Of a stretch of 30,193 bases of DNA, positions 5,876 to 30,024 are shown in pieces; within the stretch, counting starts at the first letter, position 1; every line of letters starts with the position of its first letter. A program made the translations under genes and the position numbers. This stretch comes from a virus, in the IMG/VR virus record IMGVR_UViG_3300030106_004485, positions 4,943 through 35,135 of that record; one strand, 5' to 3'. The notes under the pieces were generated by a model. The model was not told where the DNA came from. It was given only the letters and a program-made list of their open reading frames with translations, and did no database searches.

Positions 5876-5879
5876 AATC

Positions 5880-6719: not shown

Positions 6720-6750
6720 CTTTACATCACCCAGACAAACGAGGTAAGCA

Positions 6751-7095: not shown

Positions 7096-7108
7096 CCAGA
7101 GGTCAAAA

Positions 7109-7507: not shown

Positions 7508-7538
7508 ACTATCATACCCCCCTACACAGAGGTAACAC

Positions 7539-8068: not shown

Positions 8069-8092
8069 CACATTCCGAGAGCAGGTTATATT
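8065..8092 (+). promoter_or_regulatory. Repeated sigma70-like promoter P12
   Basis: TTGACA at 8065-8070, 16-nt spacer, TATATT at 8087-8092. Contains the upstream stop codon. Leader is ACATACCCCGAACAGAG, a variant shared with P13 and P14. Confidence 0.82.
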
Positions 8093-8119
8093 ACTGACAT
8101 ACCCCGAACAGAGTGTAAT

Positions 8120-8317
8120 ATGAAAATAGGTTCAGCCGTTAGACTGAAGGACACCAGCCGCCTCCTCGCGATGCAGGATATCCTAAGTGATTATGGAATT
8201 GGAATTATAGTCGGCTATTCCGATGATAATAGAGAACGCTGCTGGCTGGTTTCGTGGCCCAATAAGGGCTTTAAGCAGTGGAGATCCGCCGAGGTTCTGG
8301 AGGTTGTAAGCGAATGA
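8120..8317 (+). CDS. VGD-family small protein (KIGSAV variant)
   Basis: A 65-residue protein, M-K-I-G-S-A-V-R-L, with IGIIVGYSD, C-W-L-V-S-W-P and A-E-V-L-E-V-V-S-E. The start has GAGTGTAAT upstream, a weak site. The stop overlaps the next ATG (ATGA), and the L-E-V-V-S-E tail is formed over the next gene's ribosome-binding site (GGAGGTTG), as in the other tandem pairs. Function unknown. Confidence 0.75.
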   Translation: MKIGSAVRLKDTSRLLAMQDILSDYGIGIIVGYSDDNRERCWLVSWPNKGFKQWRSAEVLEVVSE

Positions 8318-8559
8318 TAGGTCAACTCGTAACCCTGTCCGCATCAGGGAAGAAGTTAAAATGCTGCCAGCACTTGAAAGGGCGCATCGGACTTGTGGTC
8401 GATATAGACCGAGGGCTGCCAGCGTATGCTCAGGACACCGATAAATACTGGATTGACTGGATAGGACTGTCAGTAGACGAAGCATACCCAGCAAGAAAGT
8501 GGGGCTACGGCTTGGCCAACGGCATGTGGGGACGCCGAGACTTCAAAAAAGTAAAATAA
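8314..8559 (+). CDS. VGD-family small protein, LSASG subgroup
   Basis: An 81-residue protein, M-I-G-Q-L-V-T-L-S-A-S-G-K-K, resembling the LSAAG members at 1023 and 12969. It has RIGLVVDID and Y-W-I-D-W-I-G strands and a longer, Trp/Gly-rich C-terminus (KWGYGLANGMWGRR). Coupled to the previous gene by a 4-nt overlap with GGAGGTTG upstream. Function unknown. Confidence 0.72.
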   Translation: MIGQLVTLSASGKKLKCCQHLKGRIGLVVDIDRGLPAYAQDTDKYWIDWIGLSVDEAYPARKWGYGLANGMWGRRDFKKVK

Positions 8560-8563
8560 TTCC

Positions 8564-8591
8564 TTGACAGATTAGAACAACAGGTTATACT
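8564..8591 (+). promoter_or_regulatory. Repeated sigma70-like promoter P13
   Basis: TTGACA at 8564-8569, 16-nt spacer, TATACT at 8586-8591, then the leader ACTACCATACCCCGAACACA, the same as at P14. Confidence 0.83.
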
Positions 8592-8620
8592 ACTACCATA
8601 CCCCGAACACAGGTAAACAC

Positions 8621-8821
8621 ATGGAACGTCAATTCGGACCATTTAAGAAGGGTGATCTGGTTAGGTTCAGACACCAAGAAGGACACAAGGCCCTCGGCGT
8701 CGTCGTTGAGACTGTCTACTATCCCGAAAGCCGCGTCCATAGCTTCTGTTGGGTCGCTTGGAACTTCTTGAATGGCGAACGAGGCCGAAACCCTTGGAAG
8801 CATCTGGAGAGAGTAGCATGA
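8621..8821 (+). CDS. VGD-family small protein (KKGDLV variant)
   Basis: A 66-residue protein with an N-terminal extension (M-E-R-Q-F-G-P-F) before K-K-G-D-L-V-R-F. It continues LGVVVETVYY, C-W-V-A-W and ends H-L-E-R-V-A. AGGTAA is upstream of the ATG. The stop overlaps the next VGD start by 4 nt. Function unknown. Confidence 0.77.
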   Translation: MERQFGPFKKGDLVRFRHQEGHKALGVVVETVYYPESRVHSFCWVAWNFLNGERGRNPWKHLERVA

Positions 8822-8997
8822 AAGTCGGAGACATAGTTAGACACTTCTCAAAGCACAATCAGGGCGTGATAGTGAAGCAACGACCGAATTCCCGTGCTAC
8901 TGGTCAAAATAAGATTTTTGATGTTCTGTGGTTTAACGGCTCTGTCTCTGCTTTTATATGGGATTATGATTTATATAAGCTTGACAAGATAGAATAA
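8818..8997 (+). CDS. VGD-family small protein
   Basis: A 59-residue protein, M-K-V-G-D-I-V-R-H, with GVIVKQR and F-D-V-L-W-F-N-G-S strands and a Y-D-L-Y-K-L-D-K-I-E end. GAGAGTAG provides a weak ribosome-binding site; coupling to the upstream stop is by ATGA. The codons for L-D-K near the end are the -35 of P14 and the TAA is in its spacer. Function unknown. Confidence 0.77.
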   Translation: MKVGDIVRHFSKHNQGVIVKQRPNSRATGQNKIFDVLWFNGSVSAFIWDYDLYKLDKIE

Positions 8998-9008
8998 CAG
9001 GTTATACT
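8981..9008 (+). promoter_or_regulatory. Repeated sigma70-like promoter P14
   Basis: TTGACA at 8981-8986, 16-nt spacer, TATACT at 9003-9008. The -35 is fully inside the upstream coding sequence. From the -10 on, the leader matches P13 for about 30 nt. Confidence 0.82.
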
Positions 9009-9037
9009 ACTACCATACCCCGAACACAGGTAATAGC

Positions 9038-9190
9038 ATGAAAGTCGGAGACTTGGTTAAATGGATAGATGGAGACCTCGGAATCATCACGAAGGCCCAC
9101 CCCGAACACTCGAATGTCTTCTATGTTCTCTGGCTGGACGACTTTGACCAGCCTTCATGGCATGAAGATTGCGAATTGGAGGAGGTATAA
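9038..9190 (+). CDS. VGD-family small protein (50 residues)
   Basis: A short member, M-K-V-G-D-L-V-K-W-I-D-G-D-L-G-I-I, with V-F-Y-V-L-W-L-D-D and C-E-L-E-E-V at the end. It may be near the minimal size of the domain. AGGTAATAGC precedes the ATG. The TAA shares one base with the next ATG (TAATG), and the E-E-V codons (GAGGAGGTA) are the next gene's ribosome-binding site. Function unknown. Confidence 0.78.
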   Translation: MKVGDLVKWIDGDLGIITKAHPEHSNVFYVLWLDDFDQPSWHEDCELEEV

Positions 9191-9378
9191 TGAAAGTCGG
9201 AGACCTCGTTAGATACGTCCCTACCAGCAGGGTATGGGATGACAAGTGGAAGGACTATAGGGGCCTCGTTGTTGAGTGCTTTGCAGGGACCGACAGAATA
9301 AAGCTTGTTCTCTGGATGAATGGAGAGCGGCAGACCATCCCCGAAAGGAATCTGGAGGTAGTCAATGAAAGTCGGTGA
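9190..9378 (+). CDS. VGD-family small protein
   Basis: A 62-residue member, M-K-V-G-D-L-V-R-Y-V-P, with YRGLVVECF and I-K-L-V-L-W-M-N-G-E strands, ending N-L-E-V-V-N-E-S-R. GGAGGTATA precedes the ATG. The final 14 nt overlap the next VGD gene in the standard way, so the N-E-S-R end is dictated by the downstream start sequence. Function unknown. Confidence 0.82.
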   Translation: MKVGDLVRYVPTSRVWDDKWKDYRGLVVECFAGTDRIKLVLWMNGERQTIPERNLEVVNESR

Positions 9379-10053: not shown

Positions 10054-11109
10054 ATGGCTATTGACTTCAAGACCTTTCAATCTGTAATCCCTCACATCAT
10101 TGCCGCAAGGTTCCCCGTTCTGATTCGCGGTAGGCACGGCATCGGTAAAAGCACTGTAGTCTATCAGATCGCAAAAGACCTCGGCCTACCCATAGTGGAG
10201 CGGCGTGCCTCACAGATGACGGAGGGTGATCTCCTTGGTCTTCCCAAGGTTGACGGTAACTGCACTTCGTGGCTTGCTCCTGACTGGCTGAAAGAAGCCT
10301 GTGACAATCCCCGTGTGCTCTTTCTGGATGAGGTTGACCGCGCCACAATGGAAGTCCGTCAAGGTATCTTTGAGCTTTGCGACTCTCGCAAGATTGCGGG
10401 ACACACCCTGCATCCCGATACCCTCATCTTCGCAGCAGTCAACGGTGGAGAGCATGGGGCCCAATACCAAGTCGGGGAGATGGACCCTGCGGAGCTTGAC
10501 CGCTACACGGTCTTCGATGTGGAGCCCACTACCGAGGACTGGCTGGCATGGGCCAAGGACAACGTCCTCCAAGAGGTATGGGACTTCATTAACCAGAACC
10601 ACAACCATCTGGAGCACGGCGACGACTACGAGCCCAACAAGGTTTATCCTTCTCGCCGCTCTTGGCAGCGTCTGTCTGATACTCTGACTGGCCTTCCCAA
10701 GGTTGAAAACGGACCCTCCCTGTATCATATCGCTACTTCCTTCGTTGGCTTTGAGGCCGCTGTAGCCTTCAATGACTTCATCCAGAACTACGAACGGCAA
10801 GTCACGGTGGAGGACATCGTTGACGAGGGCAAGGTAGAGCTTACCAAGGAATGGAAGATCAACGATCATAATGCTCTCATTGAGAAAATCAAGGCCAAGG
10901 GACTCTTTGACCAGAGACTGGAAGACCAGCAACTCCAGAACGTAGCTAACTACTTCGTAACCCTGCCATCCGAATTGGCTATGTCCCTCTGGCAAGTCAT
11001 GGGCTCTGGAGAGCAGGCAACGTATAATGTCGCCCAGCTTCATCAGAAGACCGCCTCCAACGGCGTGAAGGTTCAGGAGTACATCGTCGAGATTCTCACC
11101 GCCTCATAA
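10054..11109 (+). CDS. MoxR-type AAA+ ATPase
   Basis: A 351-residue AAA+ ATPase. Walker A is G-R-H-G-I-G-K-S-T at residues 26-34, Walker B is V-L-F-L-D-E-V-D at 88-95, a sensor-1 Asn lies in A-A-V-N-G-G near 130, and E-L-D-R-Y near 147-151 matches the MoxR/CbbQ arginine-finger region. The C-terminal 150 residues are helical, as in MoxR proteins. MoxR ATPases act as chaperone-like motors that remodel targets together with a VWA-domain partner. The next gene is such a partner, so the two probably work as a pair. AAGGGAG precedes the ATG. A strong terminator follows the gene and the partner has its own promoter, so the two are transcribed separately. Confidence 0.9.
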   Translation: MAIDFKTFQSVIPHIIAARFPVLIRGRHGIGKSTVVYQIAKDLGLPIVERRASQMTEGDLLGLPKVDGNCTSWLAPDWLKEACDNPRVLFLDEVDRATMEVRQGIFELCDSRKIAGHTLHPDTLIFAAVNGGEHGAQYQVGEMDPAELDRYTVFDVEPTTEDWLAWAKDNVLQEVWDFINQNHNHLEHGDDYEPNKVYPSRRSWQRLSDTLTGLPKVENGPSLYHIATSFVGFEAAVAFNDFIQNYERQVTVEDIVDEGKVELTKEWKINDHNALIEKIKAKGLFDQRLEDQQLQNVANYFVTLPSELAMSLWQVMGSGEQATYNVAQLHQKTASNGVKVQEYIVEILTAS

Positions 11110-11119
11110 ACAAGGATAT

Positions 11120-11164
11120 ACCTCCTCTTTCGCGATTGTATCAAAAAAGAGGAGGTTTCTTCTT
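11120..11164 (+). terminator. Rho-independent terminator after the MoxR-type gene
   Basis: An 11-bp perfect stem, ACCTCCTCTTT (11120-11130) and AAAGAGGAGGT (11146-11156), with a 15-nt loop and a T-rich tail TTCTTCTT. It is one of only two clear terminators in the window and sits directly before promoter P17, insulating the ATPase transcript from its partner gene. Confidence 0.85.
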
Positions 11165-11190
11165 GACAGAATACGATAGCAGGTTATATT
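11163..11190 (+). promoter_or_regulatory. Repeated sigma70-like promoter P17
   Basis: TTGACA at 11163-11168, 16-nt spacer, TATATT at 11185-11190, then GTGAACCCGAGAAG. It directly follows the terminator. Confidence 0.85.
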
Positions 11191-11218
11191 ATTAGTGAAC
11201 CCGAGAAGAGGAGCCGAC

Positions 11219-12424
11219 ATGGCTGAAGAGTTTGACCTCGATAAACACACTTTCCGACTGTTGCAGCAAGAGCCTTTCTTTGCCGCTCTGTCCAGAAGGA
11301 TTCATAAACAGGCTTCTACTGCCATACCCACCGCTGGGGTGTGCCTCAATAAGCATACGGCACAGTTTGAGATGCTCTATAACAAGGAATTCATGGCTTC
11401 GCTCCCCGATAGCCATAAGCTTGGCGTCCTGATGCACGAATTCTATCATATCATCTATGGCCATGTGACTGGCCGTCTGCCTTCTGAGGGTATGAATAAG
11501 CAATGGAACATAGCGACCGACTTGGCTATCAACAGCCATATAGCGGACAAGCTTCCAGAGGTAGCATGCGTTCCAGGCCGTGGGCCCTTCAAGGACTACC
11601 CGACTGGTAAGGCTGCCGAGTGGTACTACAAGAAGCTGAAGGAAGACGAAGAGAACCAAGAGGGCCCATATGAGCCACAAGACGGCGACGGCGATGGAGA
11701 CCCTGATGGCGATGGCTCTGGACAGGGCGGCCCTGATTCTCTGGATTCCCATGAGGGCTGGGGCGAAGCGTCAGACGAAGTCAAGGAGATGGCTAAGGAG
11801 CGCATGAAGCAAGCCATCCAAGACGCAACCAAGGAGGTCCAGTCCCGTGGACAGGGGTGGGGGAGCGTATCCTCTTCCATGCGCCAGAAGATTATGGACA
11901 TGATAACTCCCAAGGTAGACTGGCGCAAGGTTCTCCGCTACTTCATCAAGACCAGTCAACGGTCCAGCAAGCGGTCTACCGTCCGTCGTATCAACAAGCG
12001 ATTCCCCTATACCCATCCCGGGAAAAGGGTAAGCAGGACGGCGAAGATTGCTATCTCCATCGACCAGTCAGGGTCCGTATCGGATGCAATGCTGGCCGCG
12101 TTCTTCACGGAGCTTGCTGGCCTTGCCAAGTTTGCCACGTTCACCGTCATTCCTTTTGACACCGAGGTAGCAGAGGACATGGTTTTTGAATGGAAGAAAG
12201 GGCAGCGCAAGGCTTGGGAACGGGTCATGTGCGGAGGAACCTGCTTCAACGCTCCGACTAAGTATGTCAACGAGCGACAGTTTGATGGCCATATCGTATT
12301 GACTGATATGTGTGCTCCCAAGCCTATTCCCAGCAAGTGTCAACGTATGTGGATGACTGATACGGCTAACGCACGCAACCCATACTTTCAAACCAACGAG
12401 CGAGTAATCGCGATAGAACCTTGA
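11219..12424 (+). CDS. VWA-domain / metallopeptidase-like partner of the MoxR ATPase (DUF2201 type)
   Basis: A 401-residue protein. An HExxH motif (H73-E-F-Y-H77, then G-H82) lies in the N-terminal part, followed by N-I-A-T-D-L-A-I-N near 97-105, as in DUF2201-type putative metallopeptidases. A linker of Asp-Gly repeats (about 155-170) could bind calcium or act as a flexible acidic hinge. The C-terminal VWA domain has the MIDAS motif I-D-Q-S-G-S (281-286) and a later V-L-T-D-M. VWA proteins of this type are encoded beside MoxR ATPases and act as their adaptor or substrate receptor. GAGGAG precedes the ATG at 11219; an upstream in-frame GTG belongs to the promoter leader. Confidence 0.88.
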   Translation: MAEEFDLDKHTFRLLQQEPFFAALSRRIHKQASTAIPTAGVCLNKHTAQFEMLYNKEFMASLPDSHKLGVLMHEFYHIIYGHVTGRLPSEGMNKQWNIATDLAINSHIADKLPEVACVPGRGPFKDYPTGKAAEWYYKKLKEDEENQEGPYEPQDGDGDGDPDGDGSGQGGPDSLDSHEGWGEASDEVKEMAKERMKQAIQDATKEVQSRGQGWGSVSSSMRQKIMDMITPKVDWRKVLRYFIKTSQRSSKRSTVRRINKRFPYTHPGKRVSRTAKIAISIDQSGSVSDAMLAAFFTELAGLAKFATFTVIPFDTEVAEDMVFEWKKGQRKAWERVMCGGTCFNAPTKYVNERQFDGHIVLTDMCAPKPIPSKCQRMWMTDTANARNPYFQTNERVIAIEP

Positions 12425-18382: not shown

Positions 18383-18531
18383 TGGAGATAGACGGCGACT
18401 TGGTAATGAGTAACTTTATTGCTCACATGAGCGATTTGGTTCTACTTATGTTTTGCGCTGCTGTAGCCGCCGCATTAATTGCGGGAGTGTTCTCTTATTT
18501 TGAACACTACAGGGGGTCCGATAGTGAATAG
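18382..18531 (+). CDS. 49-residue single-span membrane protein
   Basis: The ATG at 18382 directly follows TACTATTTATAGT and has no Shine-Dalgarno. The product M-E-I-D-G-D-L-V-M-S-N-F-I-A-H-M has a hydrophobic span (LVLLMFCAAVAAALIAGVF) and a polar end (EHYRGSDSE). The N-terminal D-G-D-L-V is only a chance similarity to the VGD family. The 3' end overlaps the next gene by 8 nt. Function unknown; small membrane proteins next to a coiled-coil membrane protein could be lysis-related. Confidence 0.6.
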   Translation: MEIDGDLVMSNFIAHMSDLVLLMFCAAVAAALIAGVFSYFEHYRGSDSE

Positions 18532-20113
18532 TATATTTGAACAATGGCGTCAGAACACTCTTGAAGAAGCAAGAGAAGATGATTTGAAGAAGAAATATGG
18601 TCCGCGCTTTTTGAATATCAAACGCTATATCGGCTCCTTTGAGCTAATGAACGATATGATTAAGTGGGTTAACGAAACTGACTATGATCAGTTCCAGCGC
18701 CGCTATACAAAAATAAAAAAACGTTCTGAGTTATTCCCAGGGGATGAGGGATATCTGGATTATGACGAAATGAAGGCCGCAGTAAGCCGTTTGCGCGGAG
18801 AAGGACGCCCGACATTCCGCAAAGATCGTCTTAAGTATCTCGACTGGATGCTTGGCCAAGTTGAGCTTTTTGCTAATCGCGTTGAACTACCCAATGCCGA
18901 AGGCAAGCATTCAACTCTCAGAGATCTTCAGGCTCTCGCCGACAAAGAAGCTGCGGAACTCACGGGCAATGCCATCCGAAGATATGTGGCTGATTACGTT
19001 AAGAACCCCGGGCCCAATATAAAGGCTTATGAGAGCGCGCTTAAAACTGTTAGTAATTTTCGTAATGGCCTCAAGAGCATGGTTGACGACTTTGACAAAA
19101 ATAAGCGAGCAATGAAAGAGAAAGATATTAATCGCTATGAAAATATGGGAACTCTTCGTGCTGCCTTAGACGCCGATGTCTATGAGCCGCGAATTGATAA
19201 GAGCATTGCTGGCTATGAGACACGAGTTCGCGAACAAGACGCAAGGTTCTTCGACCTTCCAAGGCCGTTCACAATGGTGCGTCCCTTGTCCACCAAGGCA
19301 TCTTGCGCCTATGGGTCGGGTAAGTGGTGTATCGCGCAAAAAGGCAACGAACATTTTGATGATTATACACAAAATAACGATATTGTGTTTTATATTGTGC
19401 AAGATCATTCGCAAAAGAAAGAGAGCAAGTATTCCATTATTACTTTTCAAGTTGTAAAAGATACCGATTTTGATGGCAATTATATTGACTGGAAGGTTGA
19501 GGGATATTGGGATTATCCGAATAGGTTTCACGACAACTTTGGTCGCTTAAGGTTTGAATATGGTGATGAAATCGTTGATAGTATGTTGAAGTTTATTGAT
19601 GATGATATGGAAAATTTTAGTGGCGAAAAGAAAGACGACGAAGAAAAAAATGCCGACATGGAGCCGGGGGCTCCAATGCAAGTTGATCGGGATGATGACT
19701 ATGATGCTCCTGGGCCTCGATTTCAAAATGCCGGCGAGCAATATGCGGATGATCGTGCTATGAGAGGTGGTGACTGGTATAGTGACGATGAGGAGCCCGT
19801 TCGCGAAAGCAAGAAACTCAAGTTGTCAATAAAAGTAAAATTTGTCGAAAAGAAGAAAAAGAAGGCGGGTACTGAATCAAGCAAAGAATCGTCTCTGCAT
19901 CATTGGTTCAAAAGAAAGGGTGCCAAAGGAAAGAAAAGTGGATGGGTTGATTGTAACGCTCCCGATGGAAAGGGTGGTTATAAAGCTTGTGGTCGCGAAT
20001 CGGGAGAGAAACGAAAAAAATATCCCGCATGTCGTCCTACTCCCGGGGCCTGTAAAGAACGAGGACGAGGTAAGAGTTGGGGCAAAAAAGCATCAAAGAG
20101 GAAAAAGAAATGA
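18524..20113 (+). CDS. WCI-domain protein with basic Cys/Lys C-terminal module, paralogue 1
   Basis: A 529-residue protein starting at GTG with GGGGG upstream, N-S-I-F-E-Q-W-R-Q-N-T-L-E-E-A-R-E-D-D-L-K-K-K-Y. The N-terminal block recurs in the gene at 20891. The middle (about residues 245-310) holds R-P-L-S-T-K-A-S-C-A-Y-G-S-G-K-W-C-I-A followed by F-D-D-Y-T and a Y-I-V-Q-D-H strand, conserved with the paralogue. An acidic region follows, then a Lys-rich beta tag (KLKLSIKVKFVEKKKKK) and a tail with H-H-W-F-K-R-K-G and paired Cys (VDCNAPDGKGGYKACGRESG) that I recall from marine phage and viral proteins (possibly DUF5872-like). Function unknown; nucleic-acid binding of the tail is plausible. 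Confidence 0.72.
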   Translation: MNSIFEQWRQNTLEEAREDDLKKKYGPRFLNIKRYIGSFELMNDMIKWVNETDYDQFQRRYTKIKKRSELFPGDEGYLDYDEMKAAVSRLRGEGRPTFRKDRLKYLDWMLGQVELFANRVELPNAEGKHSTLRDLQALADKEAAELTGNAIRRYVADYVKNPGPNIKAYESALKTVSNFRNGLKSMVDDFDKNKRAMKEKDINRYENMGTLRAALDADVYEPRIDKSIAGYETRVREQDARFFDLPRPFTMVRPLSTKASCAYGSGKWCIAQKGNEHFDDYTQNNDIVFYIVQDHSQKKESKYSIITFQVVKDTDFDGNYIDWKVEGYWDYPNRFHDNFGRLRFEYGDEIVDSMLKFIDDDMENFSGEKKDDEEKNADMEPGAPMQVDRDDDYDAPGPRFQNAGEQYADDRAMRGGDWYSDDEEPVRESKKLKLSIKVKFVEKKKKKAGTESSKESSLHHWFKRKGAKGKKSGWVDCNAPDGKGGYKACGRESGEKRKKYPACRPTPGACKERGRGKSWGKKASKRKKK

Positions 20114-20886
20114 ATATCACGCAAGATGAACTTGTTATAATCATCCGGGAGGAACTTGAGGCTGTCCTTGATGAGAAGAAGGGTTCCAAAAGACTTCGGA
20201 AGAAAAAAGCAAAAAAGAAAGCGAAGAAGAAGCTTGACCGCTGCGCTCGTATCGCAAAGCGCAAGTATAAGGTCTGGCCTTCGGCTTATGCTTCTGGTGC
20301 TGCCGTTAAGTGCCGTAAGGGCAAGATCTGGAAGGGTCTCAAAGAAGCAATGGACGAGGAGAACTTCCAGCCACATGACATGTATAATCCCGAAACTGGT
20401 GAAGAGAAAAGAGCCATGACATATGATGAACATATTCAGTTGGCCTCCCAAGGATTTACCCACATTGATCCCGAAGAATTAATAGACACGTTAGAAGATG
20501 AGGGAGGAGCCGCAGGGCTTAATGCCTTTGATGGAGAAGAAGAAGAGGTTGAAAAAGCTTTGGCCGGAATGCCTAATGTTCAAAAGCATGAAGATGGAGA
20601 TTATATTCTAACAGACGAGGAAGGCAAGGTTCTTGATGAGGCAGAATACCAAGGTCGCAAGGTGCCCCTTAACAAAAGAATGCGCGGAGACGTAAAGAAG
20701 TTCAAAGTCTATGTCAAAGGTTGCGCTAAAGATAAAGACAAGGTTACAAAGATTAACTTTGGAGACAAAAACATGAAAATCAAAAAGTCCAACCCAAAGA
20801 GAAGAAAGTCCTTTAGGGCTCGGCATAAATGTAAGACAGCGGATGATAAGTGTACGCCAAGATACTGGTCTTGCAAAGCATGGTGA
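20110..20886 (+). CDS. Protein with IITxDEL-type N-terminus and KVWPSAYASG Cys/Lys module
   Basis: A 258-residue protein whose ATG overlaps the previous stop (ATGA). It starts M-N-I-T-Q-D-E-L-V-I-I-I-R-E-E-L, an amphipathic helix also seen at 28006. A Lys-rich stretch leads to L-D-R-C-A-R-I-A-K-R-K-Y-K-V-W-P-S-A-Y-A-S-G and V-K-C-R-K-G-K-I-W, a motif I recall from marine phage proteins. An acidic middle follows, and the C-terminus reads F-G-D-K-N-M-K-I-K-K-S-N-P-K-R-R-K-S-F-R, then R-H-K-C, ending Y-W-S-C-K-A-W, a second phage-associated basic Cys module. Roles are not established; virion association or nucleic-acid binding is inferred. Confidence 0.72.
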   Translation: MNITQDELVIIIREELEAVLDEKKGSKRLRKKKAKKKAKKKLDRCARIAKRKYKVWPSAYASGAAVKCRKGKIWKGLKEAMDEENFQPHDMYNPETGEEKRAMTYDEHIQLASQGFTHIDPEELIDTLEDEGGAAGLNAFDGEEEEVEKALAGMPNVQKHEDGDYILTDEEGKVLDEAEYQGRKVPLNKRMRGDVKKFKVYVKGCAKDKDKVTKINFGDKNMKIKKSNPKRRKSFRARHKCKTADDKCTPRYWSCKAW

Positions 20887-20890
20887 TTAA

Positions 20891-23083
20891 ATGAAAGAAT
20901 TATTTGAAGCATGGAACCAACACCTCCTTGATGAGGCAAAAGAAGACGATCTCAAGAAGAAATACGAAAAGAAGATTGCGGGTTGGGTTATAAGTTTTTT
21001 AAACCGTTGGACTAACGAAACCGAAAAAGGTGTGTCTCTTCGCAAACAGAGACTTAAATATTTGCCGTGGATGTATAGAGAAGCAAGTCGTAATCCTAAT
21101 TTTGAATATGTTGAAGGACTTGATGATCAAGACGATTATAGCCGTGAGGGCGATATTGATATAGAAGAGGCCCAGCGTGACTGGATGATACTTTCCGATA
21201 GTATTGAAGACTTTATAAAGTACGGCTCAGCGTTGCCCAAAGATAAGCGAGATATCAATAGGCTTAAAGATATCATTGAACTAAAAGATCTAATATGGGA
21301 AAACGTTCTTCAAAAAAGAATTGACAAATCTCTTGCCGCTTGGCAAGCACTTGACAAAGAGGATACACTTTTAGGCAAGGTGTATGACAACAGGTATACT
21401 TTGATTAGACCTCTGACAAGAGAGGCCGCTGCTAGGTTTGGTTGCACAGCCGAGTGGTGTATCGGGCAAGGTGGCCCGATGTTTGATCAATACACAAGCG
21501 AAGGTAAGGTCTTTTATTATCTCCAAGACCATGCGCGCAAAAATACGGGAGACCCATATGAACAAATTACAATTGAATATGTTTATCCTCGTGGACACAT
21601 GGAGGAGCCCGTGATAAACCAAGTATGGGATCGATATAACAATTCTCATGATCAAGACTTTATCGATCCCGGTGGTGGATGGTATGAGGCCATGATGGAG
21701 ATGCATGGCGATGATATGATACTTAATCAGATGGTATTTGAAGCAGAGACATCAGCCGAAGGCAACCCTCCTCAGTCCCGAGAACTAATGAAATATGAGG
21801 ATGACGACCTGCTAAACGAAGAGATGGGTGTTAATGAAGACAACCTTGAGGTTACTTGGAATGGGTCATATGACGATGGCTATTTATATATCGGCGGGCG
21901 GGCAAAATGGAGAATCCCGATAAGGACTAGTTTTCAAATGAACCCACAGCCACGAGATGAGCGATACAATCTCGACTTAACTCATCCAAAGATTGTCGGT
22001 GATCAAGATACTAGAATGGACTTGGTAGATCTAGACGAAAAACTTGATGAGTTTGTTCAAGAAAACGCATACTTCTTCGCGGACGACACCGGGGATACTG
22101 ATGGTATTCTATCGCGAGATGAAAGTGATCCTGGTTATCTGTTCTTCTCATATAACATATATCTTGACGAGTCAGCATTTGATCACGAAGAACGATTACA
22201 AGATGAAATTGGACACATGGCATACCTGTTCAAAGACCACATGGAAGAATACACCGATCTTCTTGCCAACTTCTGTGTGTCTGAATTTCCTCAACTCTTT
22301 GACATTCAAACATTACAAAAAATTACAGACATGGCAGAGGAGCAACTTATTGGTCTTGATAACTTTTCCGTTGTTGAGTGGGACCGCGATAAGCCTCTTG
22401 AGGGTTTCCGTCTTACTTTAAAACAAGGCGAAATAACAATGCCGCTTAATTGGGCTGCTGGTGACATCCGCTTTCGCGACAAAGCCACGGCAAATGTAAT
22501 GGCCATGCCGCACACAGTAATGAGAATAGCTAGTGCTGCATACGACGCAATGAGACAGACAGCAGTTGATATATCCAACAAACACAACCTTCACCATGAA
22601 GGGGCAACTGAGCAGTTGTATAAGATTATTGGCTCTTTACATGACAAGGCTTTGGCTTTCTCTCAAAGACAATTACAGTTGGACTTTGGACCAGACTTTA
22701 AGCTACAGCCGCAAGTTGTAACCAAACTTGAAAAGTCACTACACTTCAGAGTTAATTGGAGTAATCCAAATACAAGAACTTTAGAAAAAAAATCTAACTC
22801 ACAAATGACAATGAATTACATCTTCAATCCCGATAAGAGCGAAGACTTTGCGGCTGCGGCTGCTTACATCAAATATATTGATCAAAACTTTGAGTATATT
22901 GTGAAAGAAATGAGAAACTGGTGTCTAGAGGCGCAAGACGATGTTAATCAGAAGATTGGCGAAATAGCAAACAATTTCCGAAGGGCAGCAGATGCTACTT
23001 TTAAAGACTATGGATATCCGACCGGTCTACAAGAATCAAAGAAACATAAAAAGTTTCGGTTCAAGGTCAGAAGAAGGTCTTAA
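20891..23083 (+). CDS. Large WCI-domain protein, paralogue 2
   Basis: A 730-residue protein, M-K-E-L-F-E-A-W-N-Q-H-L-L-D-E-A-K-E-D-D-L-K-K-K-Y, matching the start of the 18524 protein. The shared core at about 172-220 is R-P-L-T-R-E-A-A-A-R-F-G-C-T-A-E-W-C-I-G, then F-D-Q-Y-T and FYYLQDHARK. The C-terminal 450 residues, absent from the paralogue, are acidic with many aromatic residues, and end in a basic beta tag (ESKKHKKFRFKVRRRS). The ATG lies 4 nt after the previous stop, with GGTGATTAA as a weak site. Followed by a strong terminator. Size and position would suit a virion protein, but this is not shown. Confidence 0.72.
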   Translation: MKELFEAWNQHLLDEAKEDDLKKKYEKKIAGWVISFLNRWTNETEKGVSLRKQRLKYLPWMYREASRNPNFEYVEGLDDQDDYSREGDIDIEEAQRDWMILSDSIEDFIKYGSALPKDKRDINRLKDIIELKDLIWENVLQKRIDKSLAAWQALDKEDTLLGKVYDNRYTLIRPLTREAAARFGCTAEWCIGQGGPMFDQYTSEGKVFYYLQDHARKNTGDPYEQITIEYVYPRGHMEEPVINQVWDRYNNSHDQDFIDPGGGWYEAMMEMHGDDMILNQMVFEAETSAEGNPPQSRELMKYEDDDLLNEEMGVNEDNLEVTWNGSYDDGYLYIGGRAKWRIPIRTSFQMNPQPRDERYNLDLTHPKIVGDQDTRMDLVDLDEKLDEFVQENAYFFADDTGDTDGILSRDESDPGYLFFSYNIYLDESAFDHEERLQDEIGHMAYLFKDHMEEYTDLLANFCVSEFPQLFDIQTLQKITDMAEEQLIGLDNFSVVEWDRDKPLEGFRLTLKQGEITMPLNWAAGDIRFRDKATANVMAMPHTVMRIASAAYDAMRQTAVDISNKHNLHHEGATEQLYKIIGSLHDKALAFSQRQLQLDFGPDFKLQPQVVTKLEKSLHFRVNWSNPNTRTLEKKSNSQMTMNYIFNPDKSEDFAAAAAYIKYIDQNFEYIVKEMRNWCLEAQDDVNQKIGEIANNFRRAADATFKDYGYPTGLQESKKHKKFRFKVRRRS

Positions 23084-23095
23084 AAAATGAAAATG

Positions 23096-23125
23096 CCCTC
23101 CTATTTATCTTTAGGAGGGTTTTTT
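23096..23125 (+). terminator. Terminator whose right arm holds the next gene's Shine-Dalgarno
   Basis: Stem CCCTCCTA (23096-23103) and TAGGAGGG (23112-23119), 8-nt loop, then six T. This is a standard Rho-independent terminator for the 20891 gene. The AGGAGGG of the right arm is also the ribosome-binding site for the ATG at 23127, so any read-through transcript would hide the site in the hairpin. Confidence 0.88.
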
Positions 23126-23126
23126 A

Positions 23127-23711
23127 ATGTTTGGATTATTTCTTTCGCTTATGATGGGGTGTGTTGACAAGCCAACACCAAGGGATTCAGCGGAGATCGC
23201 TGACTCATCGGAGCCTGTTGAGGAGCTTGTTTCGTTTGATACCTGCTCATTCCGCATTGGGGAGAATATCTGTAACATTGAATCAGTTGATCAGAATGCA
23301 GATGTTTTTAATTTGTATTCTTATCACGGGAGGCCCATTGTTATTGACTTGTCAACAATGTGGTGTCCAGTGTGCCAAAGGGCTGCTCCATACGCTGAAC
23401 AATTTATGACAGATTGGGCAGATTATGATTTGCTTTGGGTCACTATTTTAATTGAAGATGAGTATGGTGACGATGTTGATGCTTCTGAATTAGCACAATG
23501 GTCCTTGGAACATGGCATTGTAGACTCACTGGTTGTTAAAGGCGGACGAAACATGCTTGACCTTGAGGGCCTCAATGGCTTCCCTGCAACGGGGTGGCCA
23601 ACATTTGTCTTTATTGACGAAAACCTACTTATATTCCACGGTGTCGGCGGGTGGTCTGAAGAATACGTTGAACAAAAATTAACTGAAATGTTGGCGTTAG
23701 GACCCGAATGA
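23127..23711 (+). CDS. Lipoprotein with thioredoxin-like (TlpA/redoxin) domain, CPVC active site
   Basis: A 194-residue lipoprotein. The leader M-F-G-L-F-L-S-L-M-M-G-C gives a lipobox ending at C12; it is very short and has no positive n-region. An acidic Pro/Ser linker follows (PTPRDSAEIADSSEPVEE). The thioredoxin-like domain has P-I-V-I-D-L-S-T-M-W-C80-P-V-C83, a cis-Pro segment (GWPTFVFID) and the usual strand order. Such proteins catalyse thiol-disulfide exchange on the periplasmic side. C-P-V-C is close to the C-P-x-C of TlpA/ResA types. Phage-encoded periplasmic redoxins are unusual. The start sits at the end of the terminator T-tract. Confidence 0.85.
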   Translation: MFGLFLSLMMGCVDKPTPRDSAEIADSSEPVEELVSFDTCSFRIGENICNIESVDQNADVFNLYSYHGRPIVIDLSTMWCPVCQRAAPYAEQFMTDWADYDLLWVTILIEDEYGDDVDASELAQWSLEHGIVDSLVVKGGRNMLDLEGLNGFPATGWPTFVFIDENLLIFHGVGGWSEEYVEQKLTEMLALGPE

Positions 23712-23721
23712 TGTGCTGCTC

Positions 23722-23745
23722 TCCTAGTTACTTTAGAGGGGGGCG
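23722..23745 (+). repeat. Hairpin overlapping the next Shine-Dalgarno
   Basis: CTCCTAGTTACTTTAGAGGGG: an imperfect stem (CTC-C-TA with TA-GAG) whose right arm runs into the GAGGGGGG that serves the GTG at 23751. Weaker than the 23096 hairpin but with the same arrangement, before the second lipoprotein gene. Confidence 0.4.
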
Positions 23746-23750
23746 CTAAT

Positions 23751-24734
23751 GTGTTTTATTTTATTATTCTTTTGTTCATGAGTTGCACCGATGCTTTGTT
23801 GTCTCAGACAATTGTGGAGGATCATTATATATATCCTTCCTATTATAACGTCTATATTGAGACAGATACGGCGATAGTAACAGAATATGTCGCAGATACA
23901 TCTGAAGAGTTTTATCCGATATGGGTCGACTCAGTTGTTCAACCTGCTATGTCAAATGGTATTGATATTATTTGGGTTATTGATCCATCTGGATCTATGA
24001 ATGATGATAGGCCAAGGATTTTAGCGGGCATCAATGCTATGATGGAAGCGTTGCCATTAAACGTTGCTTGGAGATTATCAATAATCTCTGGTGATGATAA
24101 TATTGCCTCTACAACAAGTGAGTTTCCTTTACTTCCTGGTGATGGTCCAACAGAAGCGCAACAAATGTATAGCTCAGCAATTTATGGATTTTTTGAAGAA
24201 GGGTTCGCAGCAGTTTACAATTACATAACCCAAAACCCTTTTTCGTCTTCGTGGATGAGAGATGACGCAGCGTTGCTTGTTGTTTTTGTTTCTGATGAGG
24301 ACGACCAAAGCAATATGTACCCCACAGCGTTAGATTTTTCTCTATGGTATGAGGGACTAAGAGATGGTGTGTATCTTGCTACAATAAATCATCTTGACCC
24401 CGCTACTAGCCTTTGTAATCTCAGAACTGTTGACATTGGGCATCGATATATGGAAGCAGCAAATTACTTTAATGGACAAATAATTGATATTTGCTCCAGT
24501 GATTGGTCTGCTGGTGTACAAGACGCAGCAGCGCAGGTTCAACCTTACACAAGTATGCAGCTTAGTCAAGAACCGGTGTACGATGATCAGATTTTCGTCT
24601 TTGTTGACGGTGCTGTCTGGACACATTGGTTATATGATGTGGGAGGTAACGAAGTTAAGTTTACTGTTGTGCCTCCCGAGGGTTCACTTATAGAGGTTGC
24701 ATACTATTATGACGACCAAGATACTGGAAACTGA
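23751..24734 (+). CDS. Lipoprotein with von Willebrand factor A domain
   Basis: A 327-residue protein starting at GTG (GAGGGGGG upstream; the ATG two bases earlier is out of frame and closes quickly). The short leader M-F-Y-F-I-I-L-L-F-M-S-C places the lipidated Cys at 12. The VWA domain begins about residue 70: I-D-I-I-W-V-I-D78-P-S80-G-S82-M is a complete DxSxS MIDAS motif, and L-L-V-V-F-V-S-D-E-D-D-Q-S near 180 is the later MIDAS strand. VWA lipoproteins mediate metal-dependent protein adhesion on the cell envelope. The S-D-E-D-D-Q-S form recalls myxobacterial and other delta-type VWA proteins, which may hint at the host, with low certainty. Confidence 0.82.
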   Translation: MFYFIILLFMSCTDALLSQTIVEDHYIYPSYYNVYIETDTAIVTEYVADTSEEFYPIWVDSVVQPAMSNGIDIIWVIDPSGSMNDDRPRILAGINAMMEALPLNVAWRLSIISGDDNIASTTSEFPLLPGDGPTEAQQMYSSAIYGFFEEGFAAVYNYITQNPFSSSWMRDDAALLVVFVSDEDDQSNMYPTALDFSLWYEGLRDGVYLATINHLDPATSLCNLRTVDIGHRYMEAANYFNGQIIDICSSDWSAGVQDAAAQVQPYTSMQLSQEPVYDDQIFVFVDGAVWTHWLYDVGGNEVKFTVVPPEGSLIEVAYYYDDQDTGN

Positions 24735-24747
24735 CTAGTTATCTTTG

Positions 24748-25002
24748 ATGAAGAAGATAAAAATAACCACAAAAAGTAAAAAGTGTGTCAAAAAAGAAGA
24801 AATTCGTAAAGTTGGCAAGAAGAAGTGGTGTCTCTATTCAAAAAAGAAAGGAAAAGACGGCAAAAGAAAGAATTTAGGTTGCTATTCCTCTCGCAAAGGG
24901 GCGGAGAAAAGAGAAAAACAAGTAAATTATTTTAAAAATGTAGATGAACGCTACAATATACCGCCAAGCACTAATGATGATGGTAAAGAATTAGGAAGGT
25001 AG
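24748..25002 (+). CDS. Small basic KWCLYSKK...NLGCYSSR protein
   Basis: An 84-residue, Lys-rich protein. It begins M-K-K-I-K-I-T-T-K-S-K-K-C, the alternating Lys/Ile tag, and then has K-K-W-C-L-Y-S-K-K, N-L-G-C-Y-S-S-R-K-G-A-E-K-R-E-K-Q-V-N-Y-F-K, a module I recall from marine phage proteins where it follows other domains. Three Cys may bind metal. The ribosome-binding site is poor. It lies 13 nt after the VWA lipoprotein gene and 7 nt before the Cys-rich gene. Function unknown. Confidence 0.7.
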   Translation: MKKIKITTKSKKCVKKEEIRKVGKKKWCLYSKKKGKDGKRKNLGCYSSRKGAEKREKQVNYFKNVDERYNIPPSTNDDGKELGR

Positions 25003-25009
25003 TCAATAA

Positions 25010-25864
25010 ATGCGCATTAAAATTAAAATCAAAAGAGCAAAAGACAAGATCATGAACATGATATGTCCCCCAGCGACACAGGATCTCGCTCTAAACACAA
25101 AGAATCGTGACGCAACAATCAAAGATTTTAATTATGGGCCCTTAAATGTTGATGAGCCGGCGGATTATTGGCAAAAAATAGCCGATTATTGGAACACTAC
25201 AGAGGAAGCTGCTAAAAAATCTGTTTGCGGCAACTGTGTGGCGTTTGATATATCTCCAAGAATGAAAGATTGTATGCCCGGTGATACATTTGATGAGGAT
25301 GGCGAACTGGGATACTGTTGGATGCATCAATTTAAGTGTCATTCTGCTAGGTCTTGTCACACATGGGCCAAGGGTGGACCAATTGCGAACGATTTAGAGT
25401 CTGCCAAGTGGCAAGAAAAGAACAGAGATCAAATTGAAGAACGATGTCAAAAAGGGTATAAGACGCATCCCACCAGAAAAACAAAAAAAATGTATGGTAA
25501 GACTTATCGTAATTGCATAAAGGCCGAAGGTGAAATACAAGAAGCGGATCCCAAAAAGGGCACAGGTAAAAAACCAAAAGGTTCTGGACGTAGACTGTAT
25601 ACTGACGAAAATCCCAAGGATACAGTAAGCGTCAAGTTCAAAACAGTGCAAGATATTAAAGATACGCTTTCCAAGGCGTCTTTTAAAAGCAAAAGCCACA
25701 AAAGGCAGTCCCAAATAATCAATCTTATACACCAAAGGGTAAGGGCTGCTTATCAGAATGCTAAAGACCCTGATACAAAAGCTAGGTTAAAACGAGCATA
25801 TGACTATGCCGAGGAGAGAAAGGAAGCATCAAAAAGAAAAACTAAAAAAATGAGGGAGAAATAA
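25010..25864 (+). CDS. Cys-rich CPPATQD-family phage protein
   Basis: A 284-residue protein. It starts with the basic beta tag M-R-I-K-I-K-I-K-R-A-K-D-K, then M-I-C-P-P-A-T-Q-D-L-A-L-N-T-K-N-R and Y-G-P-L-N-V-D-E-P. A Cys cluster follows: C-G-N-C-V-A-F, M-K-D-C, G-Y-C-W-M-H-Q-F-K-C, S-C-H-T-W. This order matches a family I remember from marine cyanophages and relatives (CPLATQDI ... YGPLNP ... CGNC ... SxRTC), function unknown; the Cys pattern could hold a metal or Fe-S centre. The C-terminal 100 residues are basic helices (KSKSHKRQSQIINLIHQRVR). The next gene starts at its last base (TAATG). Confidence 0.78.
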   Translation: MRIKIKIKRAKDKIMNMICPPATQDLALNTKNRDATIKDFNYGPLNVDEPADYWQKIADYWNTTEEAAKKSVCGNCVAFDISPRMKDCMPGDTFDEDGELGYCWMHQFKCHSARSCHTWAKGGPIANDLESAKWQEKNRDQIEERCQKGYKTHPTRKTKKMYGKTYRNCIKAEGEIQEADPKKGTGKKPKGSGRRLYTDENPKDTVSVKFKTVQDIKDTLSKASFKSKSHKRQSQIINLIHQRVRAAYQNAKDPDTKARLKRAYDYAEERKEASKRKTKKMREK

Positions 25865-26301
25865 TGTTAAAATATATTTTTATGGCCTTGTTTATGTCTT
25901 GCGCTGTCAAGAAATATGATGAACCAAGGAGATACGAGGCGATGGAAAAGGTCGAACTTAACGAGGACTGGTATCATCACCTTAGAACAAAGCAAATCAG
26001 CGACAGTTTGTGTGTTGAGGGACTCATAAATCGACTTAAGAACTGGGATTGTGCAAAAATCAACGTTGAGAAGTTTGATTATCACATTGAAATTGAGTGC
26101 CAACGCCGAAACAACGAAACACGAGATACGTTTTGGGAGCGAAACGTGTTTATTATCAAAACACCAGTGTTTACAAAGAACGGACTCAAAGCTGTTAATG
26201 TTTACAAGAACCCAACCGTCATTTGTATTGACACAATTCAGTCTGTTGAGGTCATAAAATTCCAAGTTCCTGAGATTGAGAAAGTTAAAATCAAAAAATA
26301 G
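25864..26301 (+). CDS. Small lipoprotein of unknown function
   Basis: A 145-residue protein whose ATG shares one base with the preceding TAA. The leader M-L-K-Y-I-F-M-A-L-F-M-S-C gives a lipobox with Cys at 13. The mature part is charged, with three further Cys (S-L-C-V, W-D-C-A, E-C-Q-R), a beta-rich middle (FDYHIEIECQ, ERNVFIIKTPVF) and a basic end (VKIKK). No domain recognised. Third lipoprotein of the cluster. An o-spanin role is conceivable but the length and extra Cys do not support it strongly. Confidence 0.7.
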   Translation: MLKYIFMALFMSCAVKKYDEPRRYEAMEKVELNEDWYHHLRTKQISDSLCVEGLINRLKNWDCAKINVEKFDYHIEIECQRRNNETRDTFWERNVFIIKTPVFTKNGLKAVNVYKNPTVICIDTIQSVEVIKFQVPEIEKVKIKK

Positions 26302-26330
26302 TTGACAAAACAACCAAAACAGGTTATAAT
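26302..26330 (+). promoter_or_regulatory. Consensus promoter P28 before the HAD-Nudix gene
   Basis: TTGACA at 26302-26307, 17-nt spacer ending AGGT, TATAAT at 26325-26330: a perfect sigma70 consensus and the only member of the repeated family in the right-hand region. It begins one base after the stop of the upstream lipoprotein gene. Confidence 0.9.
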
Positions 26331-26345
26331 AAGAGAAACTGTATC

Positions 26346-27557
26346 ATGAATAAGACTATTACCTTTGATTTTGACAACACGATAGCTATGTCATACATGG
26401 ATGATAAATCCGAAAAGGTAAATTATATCTTTCAAGAATACAATGAGGATATTCTCGACCTAATTCGGTCTCATATCCAAAATCAAGATAGTGTATTTAT
26501 TGTCACATCGCGCATCGAAACGAAAGAGTCGATGTTTCCCGAGGACACCATACCAAAACACTTGGAAAGGTTGAATCTAGCTGGCTATTTCCTTCCAAAT
26601 AGACTATATTACACCAATTCTGAACCTAAGCTGAACACTCTTAGGCAGTTGGGCTCGGAAATGCACTATGATGACGATGTTGAGGAGATAACTCTTCTTC
26701 AAAAAGCTGGGATGAACGTCAAATCATCCCTTGATTTCTATTCTGATGTCCAAACTGTTGCCAAGTCAATAATTTTTGACTCCGAAGATAGGGTATTGCT
26801 TCTTCAAAGAACCGATGGGGGGCGCAAATGGGACCTTCCGGGTGGACACGTCAAGAGTATTGAGGCCGAGAGGGGTCTTTTGGGTGTGGAAAATGGTCTG
26901 GTTAGAGAGGTTGCGGAAGAAACGGGCCTTATTTTGCCGTTTCAGAAGCTTCAAGCACGCTTGACACACCATTGGCGTGGTAATGATATCGCTATTTATT
27001 CATTTTTGAGCAAACTACCGCATCCACAGCCCGAAATTGATTTAAATTTGCAGGATTTCCAAGAGAACGATAATTACATATGGGCAAATGCTGAAGAGAT
27101 TGAACAGTATTATAACAAATGTACCAGTCTTGTCAAGAGGATTATCGATATTATGAAGAAAAACAATGATAAGGTGACTGATTCACAAGCTTTACGTTAC
27201 ACAAAGGACGGAAAGCATCGTAAAATGAAGATGAGACTCATCGGACAGGGCGAAAACAAGAGTGATGGCGGTGGGCCATATACCGAAGACCCCGATATGG
27301 AACGCTCAAAGTCTGCTCCTCCTCTTGGTGAGGGCAAAAATAAAAAAAAACTAAAGATTAGAGTTAAGATTCGACCCAAATCTGATGATCTTGACGAGAA
27401 AAAGAAAAAAAAGAAGAAGAAAAAGAAGAAATCTCGTAGAAAGAGCAGAAGATCGCCCTATAGGGGCGTAGGATACGGTGGATATTACCCATTTCACAGC
27501 GTTTATGACAGCGGTGGAGACGCTGGCGGTGGTGATGGCGGGGGTGGTGGTGAATAA
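26346..27557 (+). CDS. HAD phosphatase - Nudix hydrolase fusion with basic and Gly-rich tail
   Basis: A 403-residue protein. Residues 1-135 are a HAD-like domain: D8-F-D10-N-T12 (motif I), I-V-T54-S55-R (motif II) and Y-D-D-D109-111 (motif IV). Residues 136-270 are a Nudix hydrolase: D-L-P-G-G-H-V at 163-169 and R187-E-V-A-E-E-T-G form the Nudix box, with about six extra residues between its G-x5-E and REV parts. The tail has S-K-S-A-P-P, a phage-type motif, then the beta tag KLKIRVKIR, eleven consecutive Lys with Arg/Ser, and a Tyr/Gly-rich end. Nudix enzymes cleave nucleoside diphosphate-X bonds; HAD domains remove phosphates. Together they may process one nucleotide substrate in two steps; this is inference. 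It has its own promoter. Confidence 0.85.
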   Translation: MNKTITFDFDNTIAMSYMDDKSEKVNYIFQEYNEDILDLIRSHIQNQDSVFIVTSRIETKESMFPEDTIPKHLERLNLAGYFLPNRLYYTNSEPKLNTLRQLGSEMHYDDDVEEITLLQKAGMNVKSSLDFYSDVQTVAKSIIFDSEDRVLLLQRTDGGRKWDLPGGHVKSIEAERGLLGVENGLVREVAEETGLILPFQKLQARLTHHWRGNDIAIYSFLSKLPHPQPEIDLNLQDFQENDNYIWANAEEIEQYYNKCTSLVKRIIDIMKKNNDKVTDSQALRYTKDGKHRKMKMRLIGQGENKSDGGGPYTEDPDMERSKSAPPLGEGKNKKKLKIRVKIRPKSDDLDEKKKKKKKKKKKSRRKSRRSPYRGVGYGGYYPFHSVYDSGGDAGGGDGGGGGE

Positions 27558-28005: not shown

Positions 28006-28344
28006 ATGTTTATCACCGAAAGTCGCCTAAAACAGATAATTTTGGAAGAAATGGGTGCCCTAGAGGCCGAAAAACTCCAAAATATGGAGCCAGAAGGGTC
28101 GATGGTGAGGGATCAATTGCTCCAAATGGCTGAATATGCGACGTTTTTAGCCAATAATATGCCCGAAGACGCCCATTTGGCGGGTTGGGTACAGTCTAAA
28201 ATTACGCTTGCAAACGACTATATCAGCAAAGTAAAGCATTATTTAGAGGAAGAAATGGGGCCTCAAATGGGTGGTGGGTGCGGAGAACCCGAAGAAATGC
28301 CTGTTCCAGCCGTTGATGCAGTCGCTATTCAAGAAGAAACGTGA
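28006..28344 (+). CDS. Phage helical protein with ITESRLKQII N-terminus
   Basis: A 112-residue protein with GAGGAATTA before the ATG. It begins M-F-I-T-E-S-R-L-K-Q-I-I-L-E-E-M, the amphipathic helix type also at 20110. The core (DQLLQMAEYATFLANNMPED, then L-A-G-W-V-Q-S-K-I-T-L-A-N-D-Y-I-S-K-V-K-H-Y-L-E-E-E) matches a pattern I recall from marine phage proteins (W-V-Q-S-K-I-x-x-A-x-D-Y-I-x-x-V-x-H-Y-L). The tail is Gly/Pro-rich and acidic. Function unknown. Confidence 0.74.
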   Translation: MFITESRLKQIILEEMGALEAEKLQNMEPEGSMVRDQLLQMAEYATFLANNMPEDAHLAGWVQSKITLANDYISKVKHYLEEEMGPQMGGGCGEPEEMPVPAVDAVAIQEET

Positions 28345-29145: not shown

Positions 29146-30024
29146 ATGAACAGAGTAAGGCTTTTAAAAAACACAACTGACTTTAATGATTTTGAGGATC
29201 TCCTGCACAATTTTCTTGATTATGCTCAAAGCTATATGGGACTCAGGTCTGTGCCTGACATTGAGTTTATCCACGACGAGCAAAATGGAAAAAACATCTT
29301 GGGCAAAACCGCTCAATACGACCCCGGGACATCTGAGATCCATGTGTACTCTTACGGGAGACACCCAAAAGATATGCTGCGTTCCATTGCACATGAATTA
29401 GTTCACCATATGCAGAACGAACAAGGGCGCTTAAATGTTGGAGGTTATCACGGCCCGGGATATGCCCAGAAGAACCCTGCGCTAAGAGAAATTGAAAAAG
29501 AAGCGATGCTTAAATCAAACATATGTTTGCGAGACTGGGAAGATGGTCTAAAAGGCCAAAAACGAACTATTTACAAAGAATGGAGAAATAATACTATGTC
29601 TTTAAAAGAATGGAAAAACAAAGAGTTAAACACTCTCCTCGTTGAGAAATGGGGTTTTGGAAAAATTCAGGAAGCAAAAGAGGAAAAGGAAGAAGCTAAG
29701 GATAAAGAGAAGGAAGAAGGTGGGAAAAAAAAACACCCTCTTGATGTTGCTCCCCCACACACTGGAGAGCCTGATGAAGAAGACTTTGCTAAATTACGAA
29801 AAGATAAAGAAGAAGAGGAACTTGAAGAATCTGATAAACAAAAGACAGATGAGAAGGAACTCCCGGATGAACTTAAGACACCTACCGATCGCAACAGGAA
29901 GCAGGGACAGAACCCCTTCAAACCAAACAGTGACCTTGGCACTTTTGAAGAGCGTCTCGCAAAAGAGATTGCCACTAAGATGCTTCAAAACGAAAGTCTT
30001 ATGAAAAAACTAAGAGGAAAGTAA
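29146..30024 (+). CDS. Zinc metalloprotease with charged linker and phage C-terminal module
   Basis: A 292-residue protein. The zincin motif is I-A-H83-E84-L-V-H87-H, with an acidic R-E-I-E-K-E-A segment at 114-120 supplying the likely third ligand (E117 or E119). Residues 150-172 carry M-S-L-K-E-W-K-N-K-E-L-N-T-L-L-V-E-K-W-G-F-G, a module I recall from marine phage proteins. A very charged Lys/Glu linker (about 175-260) precedes a helical end (FEERLAKEIATKMLQNESLM). It could process virion proteins or attack host proteins; the target is unknown. The ATG lies 4 nt after the previous stop, with weak ribosome-binding signals. Confidence 0.82.
   Translation: MNRVRLLKNTTDFNDFEDLLHNFLDYAQSYMGLRSVPDIEFIHDEQNGKNILGKTAQYDPGTSEIHVYSYGRHPKDMLRSIAHELVHHMQNEQGRLNVGGYHGPGYAQKNPALREIEKEAMLKSNICLRDWEDGLKGQKRTIYKEWRNNTMSLKEWKNKELNTLLVEKWGFGKIQEAKEEKEEAKDKEKEEGGKKKHPLDVAPPHTGEPDEEDFAKLRKDKEEEELEESDKQKTDEKELPDELKTPTDRNRKQGQNPFKPNSDLGTFEERLAKEIATKMLQNESLMKKLRGK

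Follow-up and report, generated by a model that had tools for sequence, protein, structure and literature searches.

In phage T4, ten N-terminal residues of the capsid-targeting sequence (CTS) suffice for targeting, with residues 4 and 7 important for targeting and residues 8 and 10 for processing (PMC9026906), and the Alt protein has both of its ends removed (PMC5694885). According to the T4 genome, IPII and IPIII both begin with MKTYQEFIAE↓A (here and below, ↓ marks the cut position of a motif), and T4-type prohead proteases cut a pattern with P1 glutamate and an aliphatic P3 residue. The protease of phage SPN3US uses AxE (PMC5694885). Here we describe a block of genes in a 30,193 nt stretch of virus DNA (the window; bases 4943–35135 of the 35,135-base IMG/VR virus record IMGVR_UViG_3300030106_004485), the products of which carry a CTS-like helical leader, a short strand of alternating basic and hydrophobic residues (beta-tag), or both. 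All genes discussed lie on the plus strand and positions are those of the window. The block probably encodes internal head cargo of a T4-like aquatic phage that is packed into the prohead and released from its tags by the head protease.

Basic Beta-Strands on Proteins of the Window

Five window proteins have a Lys/Arg-hydrophobic strand at a terminus or at the border of a module, three of them at or near the C-terminal side (the proteins starting at 18524, 20891 and 26346) and two at the N-terminus (24748 and 25010). The original prediction had named the five strands, KLKLSIKVKFVEKK, KKFRFKVRRRS, MKKIKITTKSKK, MRIKIKIKRAKDK and KLKIRVKIRPK, and each was found where it had been placed: KLKLSIKVKFVEKK is the strand of the protein at 18524 (GTG start), at about 19808–19855, KKFRFKVRRRS is the C-terminus of 20891–23083, and KLKIRVKIRPK lies within 26346–27557, at 27333–27380. 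The carriers had been described as otherwise unrelated, which is not wholly so, since the proteins at 18524 (protein A) and 20891 (protein C) are related via a domain (WC domain) whose signature is WC(I/T)..F..Y. The strand does recur on unrelated proteins in related uncultured phages, where it is found on kinase, WC/PcfJ-like, Cys-rich, Nudix and nucleotidyltransferase-like proteins.

Protein A (18524–20113, 529 amino acids (aa)) consists of a CTS-like leader, a WC domain, the beta-tag SKKLKLSIKVKFVEKK (19808–19855) and a Cys/Lys module, SSLHHWFKRKG..WVDCNAPDGKGGYKACG (19889–20110), that shares 81.5% identity, in an alignment of 54 aa, with a Flavobacterium phage immuto protein. Protein C (20891–23083, 730 aa) likewise has a CTS-like leader and a WC domain (DINR..WCI..F..Y, 21248–21670), and ends in the beta-tag SKKHKKFRFKVRRRS (23036–23080). 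The beta-leader of protein F (24748–25002, 84 aa), MKKIKITTKSKK, is followed by a KWCLYSKK module, while protein G (25010–25864, 284 aa) has the beta-leader MRIKIKIKRAKDK (25010–25048), a Cys-rich domain and a GTGKKPKGS module (25544–25861). In the fifth protein (26346–27557, 403 aa), a weakly HAD/PNKP-like N-terminal part precedes a putative Nudix hydrolase domain (44.1 bits against Pfam NUDIX, cut-off 21.1), the beta-tag GKNKKKLKIRVKIRPK (27333–27380) and a Lys-rich and Gly/Asp-rich tail.

A joining of tags to Cys/Lys modules had also been proposed, and this holds for protein A, with WVDCNAPDGKGGYKACG after its tag, and for protein F, with KWCLYSKK after its leader, but for no others in the window. 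The protein with the KVWPSAYASG and SFRARH..YWSCKAW modules (protein B, 20110–20886, 258 aa) has a helical leader, MNITQDELVIIIREELEAVLDE, and no beta-tag, although in relatives there is a B-like protein with such a tag at its end. The modules are not a component of the tag; they are widespread and found both with and without leaders.

A megablast of the second half of the window against phages gave no matches, and a scan for close relatives using protein C found none; the closest relative is a 185 kb contig, G051. Relatives of protein B are numerous (at least 524 confirmed in the scan). Many contigs are fragments, and gene starts were called by script, a few of them wrongly, as for the Cys-rich protein of L187/G051, the leader of which was taken from the open frame.

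Exchange of Helical and Beta-Strand Leaders

The helical leaders of proteins A (MNSIFEQWRQNTLEE↓A, 18524–18568), C (MKELFEAWNQHLLDE↓A, 20891–20935) and many relatives, judged by eye, resemble the N-terminal T4 CTS of about ten residues (MKTYQEFIAE↓A in T4, MKLLLENWRKYLNE here). A gp21-type site motif is present at their ends (LEE↓A in A, LDE↓A in C). The beta-tags are unlike MKTYQEFIAE in sequence and do not qualify as T4 leaders. On resemblance, the helical leaders can be grouped with the T4 CTS, and the beta-tag would be a separate leader that is apparently undescribed.

In three cargo families (Cys-rich, kinase and WC), a beta-leader occupies the position held in relatives by a CTS-like helix. 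The Cys-rich domain of the protein G family follows a beta-leader in the window, L009, L187 and L005, and a helix in L199 (MKLVLENWRKFIVE↓A), in L188 (MKHLFENWNKFITE↓A) and, in similar form, in L189, L195, L196 and L278. The kinase domain, which scores above the cut-off for Pfam Pkinase, has about ten beta-leaders compared to MKLLLENWRKFVNE↓E in L299. Leaders of the WC domain include the two helices of the window, MKLFEVFTLYED in phage PA5oct and MKVRIIKE↓N in G051. There appear to be two interchangeable leaders, both predicted to be cleavable. No description of the basic beta-strand form was found in the open-access literature (subscription journals lay outside the search), and the same searches gave no paper tying capsid targeting to marine phages, apart from a T4 review.

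Protease-Type Motif at Tag and Module Borders

The motif (L/I/V)xE↓(A/G/S), at which T4-type prohead proteases cut, sits where tag or module meets cargo. In the window it precedes the tags of proteins C (LQE↓S), A (VRE↓S) and the Nudix protein (LGE↓G), and the modules of proteins B (LDE↓A, just before the YWSC module at 20641–20883) and G (IQE↓A before the GTGKKPKGS module, the sole strict site of this protein). The tags of A and the Nudix protein are also followed by FVE↓K and LDE↓K, respectively. Each of these proteins other than C has just one or two such sites, and the majority are at borders.

Module copies were gathered from IMG/VR and examined for (L/I/V/M/F/Y)xE↓(A/G/S/N) exactly at the border. 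The motif was present in 40 of 43 nonredundant extended copies of the YWSC module, against 2.0% per upstream position, and in 18 of 31 internal copies of the GTGKKPKGS module, against 1 of 49 copies near an N-terminus and a background of 1.2%. The sequences upstream of these borders largely have no kinship to one another. Many small contigs (L127–L172) carry the GTGKKPKGS module near the N-terminus with neither leader nor border motif, and from these copies the module probably also has a use independent of processing.

Beta-leaders end in a site in 11 of 17 proteins, compared to 58 of 502 other proteins (p = 7e-7, a count inflated by related kinases), and in 5 of 8 cases when collapsed by hand to families (p = 8.5e-4); both p-values are descriptive, as tag and leader patterns were picked after inspection of the sequences. 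The border is constant despite differences in leader length (MKVRIIKE↓GSF, MKIKIKKKLNE↓GSF and MIKVKIKKSLAE↓GG). For tags that are C-terminal or precede a module, a strict site lies upstream in 5 of 14 (background 5.8%) and, allowing K after the glutamate, a site lies downstream in 10 of 14 (background 11.5%); the removal of both ends of T4 Alt is a precedent for a removable C-terminal tag. The density of sites per protein in the cargo block was not clearly raised (26 versus 20 expected), and single sites away from borders were therefore not used. A count of CTS patterns was also set aside as evidence for sites, being circular (MKLLLEN contains LxEN). The presence of a head-protease site at the borders of tags and leaders suggests that these unrelated proteins are head cargo.

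Alternatively, only the helical leaders and LxE sites might reflect T4-like packaging, and the beta-strand could be a DNA- or RNA-binding tail that keeps the cargo on the packaged genome. The strands are strongly basic, often with Lys-rich stretches next to them, and protein F and the Cys-rich proteins have no site beside the beta-leader, so that the strand would remain on the mature protein. However, beta-leaders take the place of the CTS-like helices of relatives, and most of them end in, or are flanked by, a protease-type site that would remove them, which makes a nucleic acid-binding tail unlikely.

Head Genes and Virion Proteins of Relatives

A T4-type prohead protease (PF03420) was detected in 16 of 50 module-bearing contigs, most of which are fragments, and in none of 14 control genomes. 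All six long genomes tested (G051, G060, Pseudomonas phage PA5oct, immuto, Pelagibacter phage HTVC008M and C48C1) encode both the protease and a Gp23 capsid protein. In G051 the gene order is terminase, portal-like protein, protease, further structural genes, scaffold-like protein and capsid protein. Family models identified just two of these, the protease and the capsid protein, and the others were named from size, position and sequence character. The scaffold-like protein of G051 (400 aa) has a net charge of -55. Another feature of this protein (G051:118124–119326) is the RRLAGIK end that it shares with the scaffold-like protein beside the protease of PA5oct (L233), a distant phage. The capsid proteins of G051 and immuto contain LxE↓(G/S/A) at residues 8 or 9, 34 and 59, which fits use of the motif by the protease of this clade; those of HTVC008M and C48C1 have no such sites in their first 100 residues.

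The only direct virion evidence is borrowed from PA5oct. The annotation lists its protein EST35_0205, which is homologous to the WC domain, as structural on the basis of electrospray ionization tandem mass spectrometry, and the gene lies among those of other proteins detected by mass spectrometry. In an actinophage, a gene with homology to the Cys-rich domain adjoins others that carry the annotations capsid maturation protease and major capsid protein. A cytidylyltransferase has been detected in virions of cyanophage S-SM1 (PMC3037559), which is only a lead, as a tblastn search with the nucleotidyltransferase part of the G051 protein gave no phage match.

A role for the tagged proteins within the infected cell and not in the head, perhaps at a site of replication, with their LxE borders cut by another protease or left uncut, would suit cargo enzymes with plausible intracellular roles (Nudix, kinase) and tagged genes that adjoin lipoprotein-like genes outside the capsid cluster. 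Yet T4 ipII and ipIII also lie apart from the capsid cluster, the motif is that of the T4-type head protease, relatives encode such a protease and the PA5oct homologue was found in virions, so an intracellular site of action has little probability.

Position and Composition of the Tag

A strict seven-residue alternating pattern occurs four times in the window, compared to 0.9 times in shuffled proteins. Among 927 nonredundant proteins from 69 clade sequences, its frequency per position was 0.0027 at N-termini, 0.0015 at C-termini and 0.0005 in interiors, and the tag was enriched over interiors 5.6-fold at N-termini and 3.0-fold at C-termini. Orthologues of the Nudix protein keep the tag in the same place with changed letters, namely KKLKIRVKIRP (window), KKIKVKINSN (L252, the same contig as L187), KKIKVKIVKK (L267 and L277) and KKIKIKIVKK (L090). 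That the strand is a functionless by-product of Lys-rich, low-complexity composition, for which the whole-proteome count of G051 (see below) would speak, is highly improbable given that termini are enriched, Nudix orthologues conserve place and not letters and borders stay constant after leaders of different length, so the tag does not look like the mere composition effect, lacking positional conservation, that the original prediction had considered.

Proposed Packaging and Maturation

Several observations weigh against packaging of these proteins in the head. The 35 kb fragment from which the window derives has no recognised capsid gene, neither a T4-type prohead protease nor a Gp23-like capsid protein was seen on it, and no virion proteins are known for this phage. 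Homology of PA5oct EST35_0205 to the WC domain spans only about 100 residues. The border motif is short, and its count in the G051 proteome is at chance level (244 versus 228). The beta-leaders of the Cys-rich family, including that of protein G, and of protein F have no neighbouring strict site, and the border of the YWSC module, for which sequence and fold searches of PDB gave no similar solved structure, could partly be a domain edge. As for the tag itself, the strict pattern is not above chance in the whole G051 proteome (6 versus 4.8), so the case for the tag rests on its position and not on its number.

Position, recurrence on unrelated proteins and exchange with CTS-like helices nevertheless give good support to the idea of a common tag that directs different cargo to a single place. 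Of the destinations that had been suggested, the capsid interior (prohead) agrees best with the data, given the prohead-protease motif beside tags and modules, and nothing was found in support of DNA or an infection compartment. In the mechanism that we propose for head packaging, each cargo polypeptide would have a short targeting peptide (a CTS-like helix or a basic beta-strand), which lies at either terminus or separates the cargo domain from an accessory module. Both leader types may dock the cargo on the acidic prohead core; that the basic strand binds an acidic scaffold is guessed from their charges. As the head matures, the T4-type protease would cleave the (L/I/V)xE↓(A/G/S) borders, freeing the targeting peptides and splitting off modules, and the mature enzymes and small Cys/Lys modules would remain with the packaged DNA inside the head and presumably enter the host along with it. 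Virion location, cleavage and injection are inferred.

More generally, and as a tentative proposal, aquatic T4-like phages may use a second, loosely sequence-defined head-targeting code, a basic-hydrophobic strand at either end or between modules, with maturation yielding injected enzymes (kinase, Nudix, nucleotidyltransferase) and small Cys/Lys proteins. The modules are present on many uncharacterised aquatic phage proteins, and a rule of leader plus LxE↓A/G/S would predict which module proteins are head cargo and where their mature forms start. It would also give candidates for proteins delivered early in infection, including a protein kinase, and the beta-tag would be an alternative for the loading of T4-like heads with proteins.

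Other Features of the Window

The NCBIfam search returned only Nudix and weak kinase-like matches. No Pfam or NCBIfam model, whether of the high-potential iron-sulfur proteins (HiPIP) or another family, matched protein G (25010), and the HiPIP name derives from the annotation of homologues. The WC domain had no Pfam match and no PDB match under E 0.001. The Foldseek matches included several PcfJ-like viral models, weakly (E 5e-4 or worse), for a query model with a predicted local distance difference test score (pLDDT) of 71. The Lys-rich and Gly/Asp-rich tail of the Nudix protein (..YYPF..DSGGDAGGGDGGGGGE, 27420–27557) is common to its family and also occurs in some kinase-family proteins (L185, L270).

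Within the cargo block are untagged, lipoprotein-like proteins with thioredoxin-fold or VWA-like features (23127–24734), and the VWA protein is kept in 52 loci, where it marks the block. A 112 aa protein (28006–28344) has a helical leader of the kind seen in protein B (MFITESRLKQIILEE). Further downstream (29146–30024) is a protein with a HELVHH zinc-protease-like motif and, in its interior, a MSLKEWKNKELNTLLVEKWGF segment. Relatives also have this segment, which is perhaps another type of leader. More than ten consecutive small proteins starting with MKVGDLV or similar, apparently paralogous, are encoded at 257–9378, followed by a MoxR-like AAA ATPase and a VWA/metallopeptidase-like gene (10054–12424), the same order as in G051 (3196–5553).

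Comparison with Known Systems

The window resembles the T4 IPI–IPIII/Alt system in having short leaders on otherwise unrelated proteins, (L/I)xE↓(A/G/S) at the leader end and Alt-like, here predicted, processing of both ends, and genomes of relatives encode a protease and a capsid protein of T4 type. It differs from T4 in its second, basic beta-strand leader, in the C-terminal and inter-module use of this strand, in having several leader types per gene block and in its cargo of kinase, Nudix and nucleotidyltransferase-like domains and small Cys/Lys modules. Ejection proteins of the phiKZ/SPN3US type are also diverse head proteins with removable propeptides that are cut after xxE. Their propeptides are mostly long and the SPN3US motif is AxE (PMC5694885), whereas the leaders described here have 8–16 residues and an aliphatic P3, and the protease is recognised by the T4 family model PF03420. 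PHROG families 7595, 727 and 9979, which are without assigned function, hold the YWSC and VWPSAY modules of protein B; no processing is described there, while here each is given a predicted mature start. Lastly, the model of the WC domain weakly matches several PcfJ-like viral models and in this respect is similar to PcfJ-like phage proteins, but the domain lacks a Pfam match and its PA5oct member is a virion protein.

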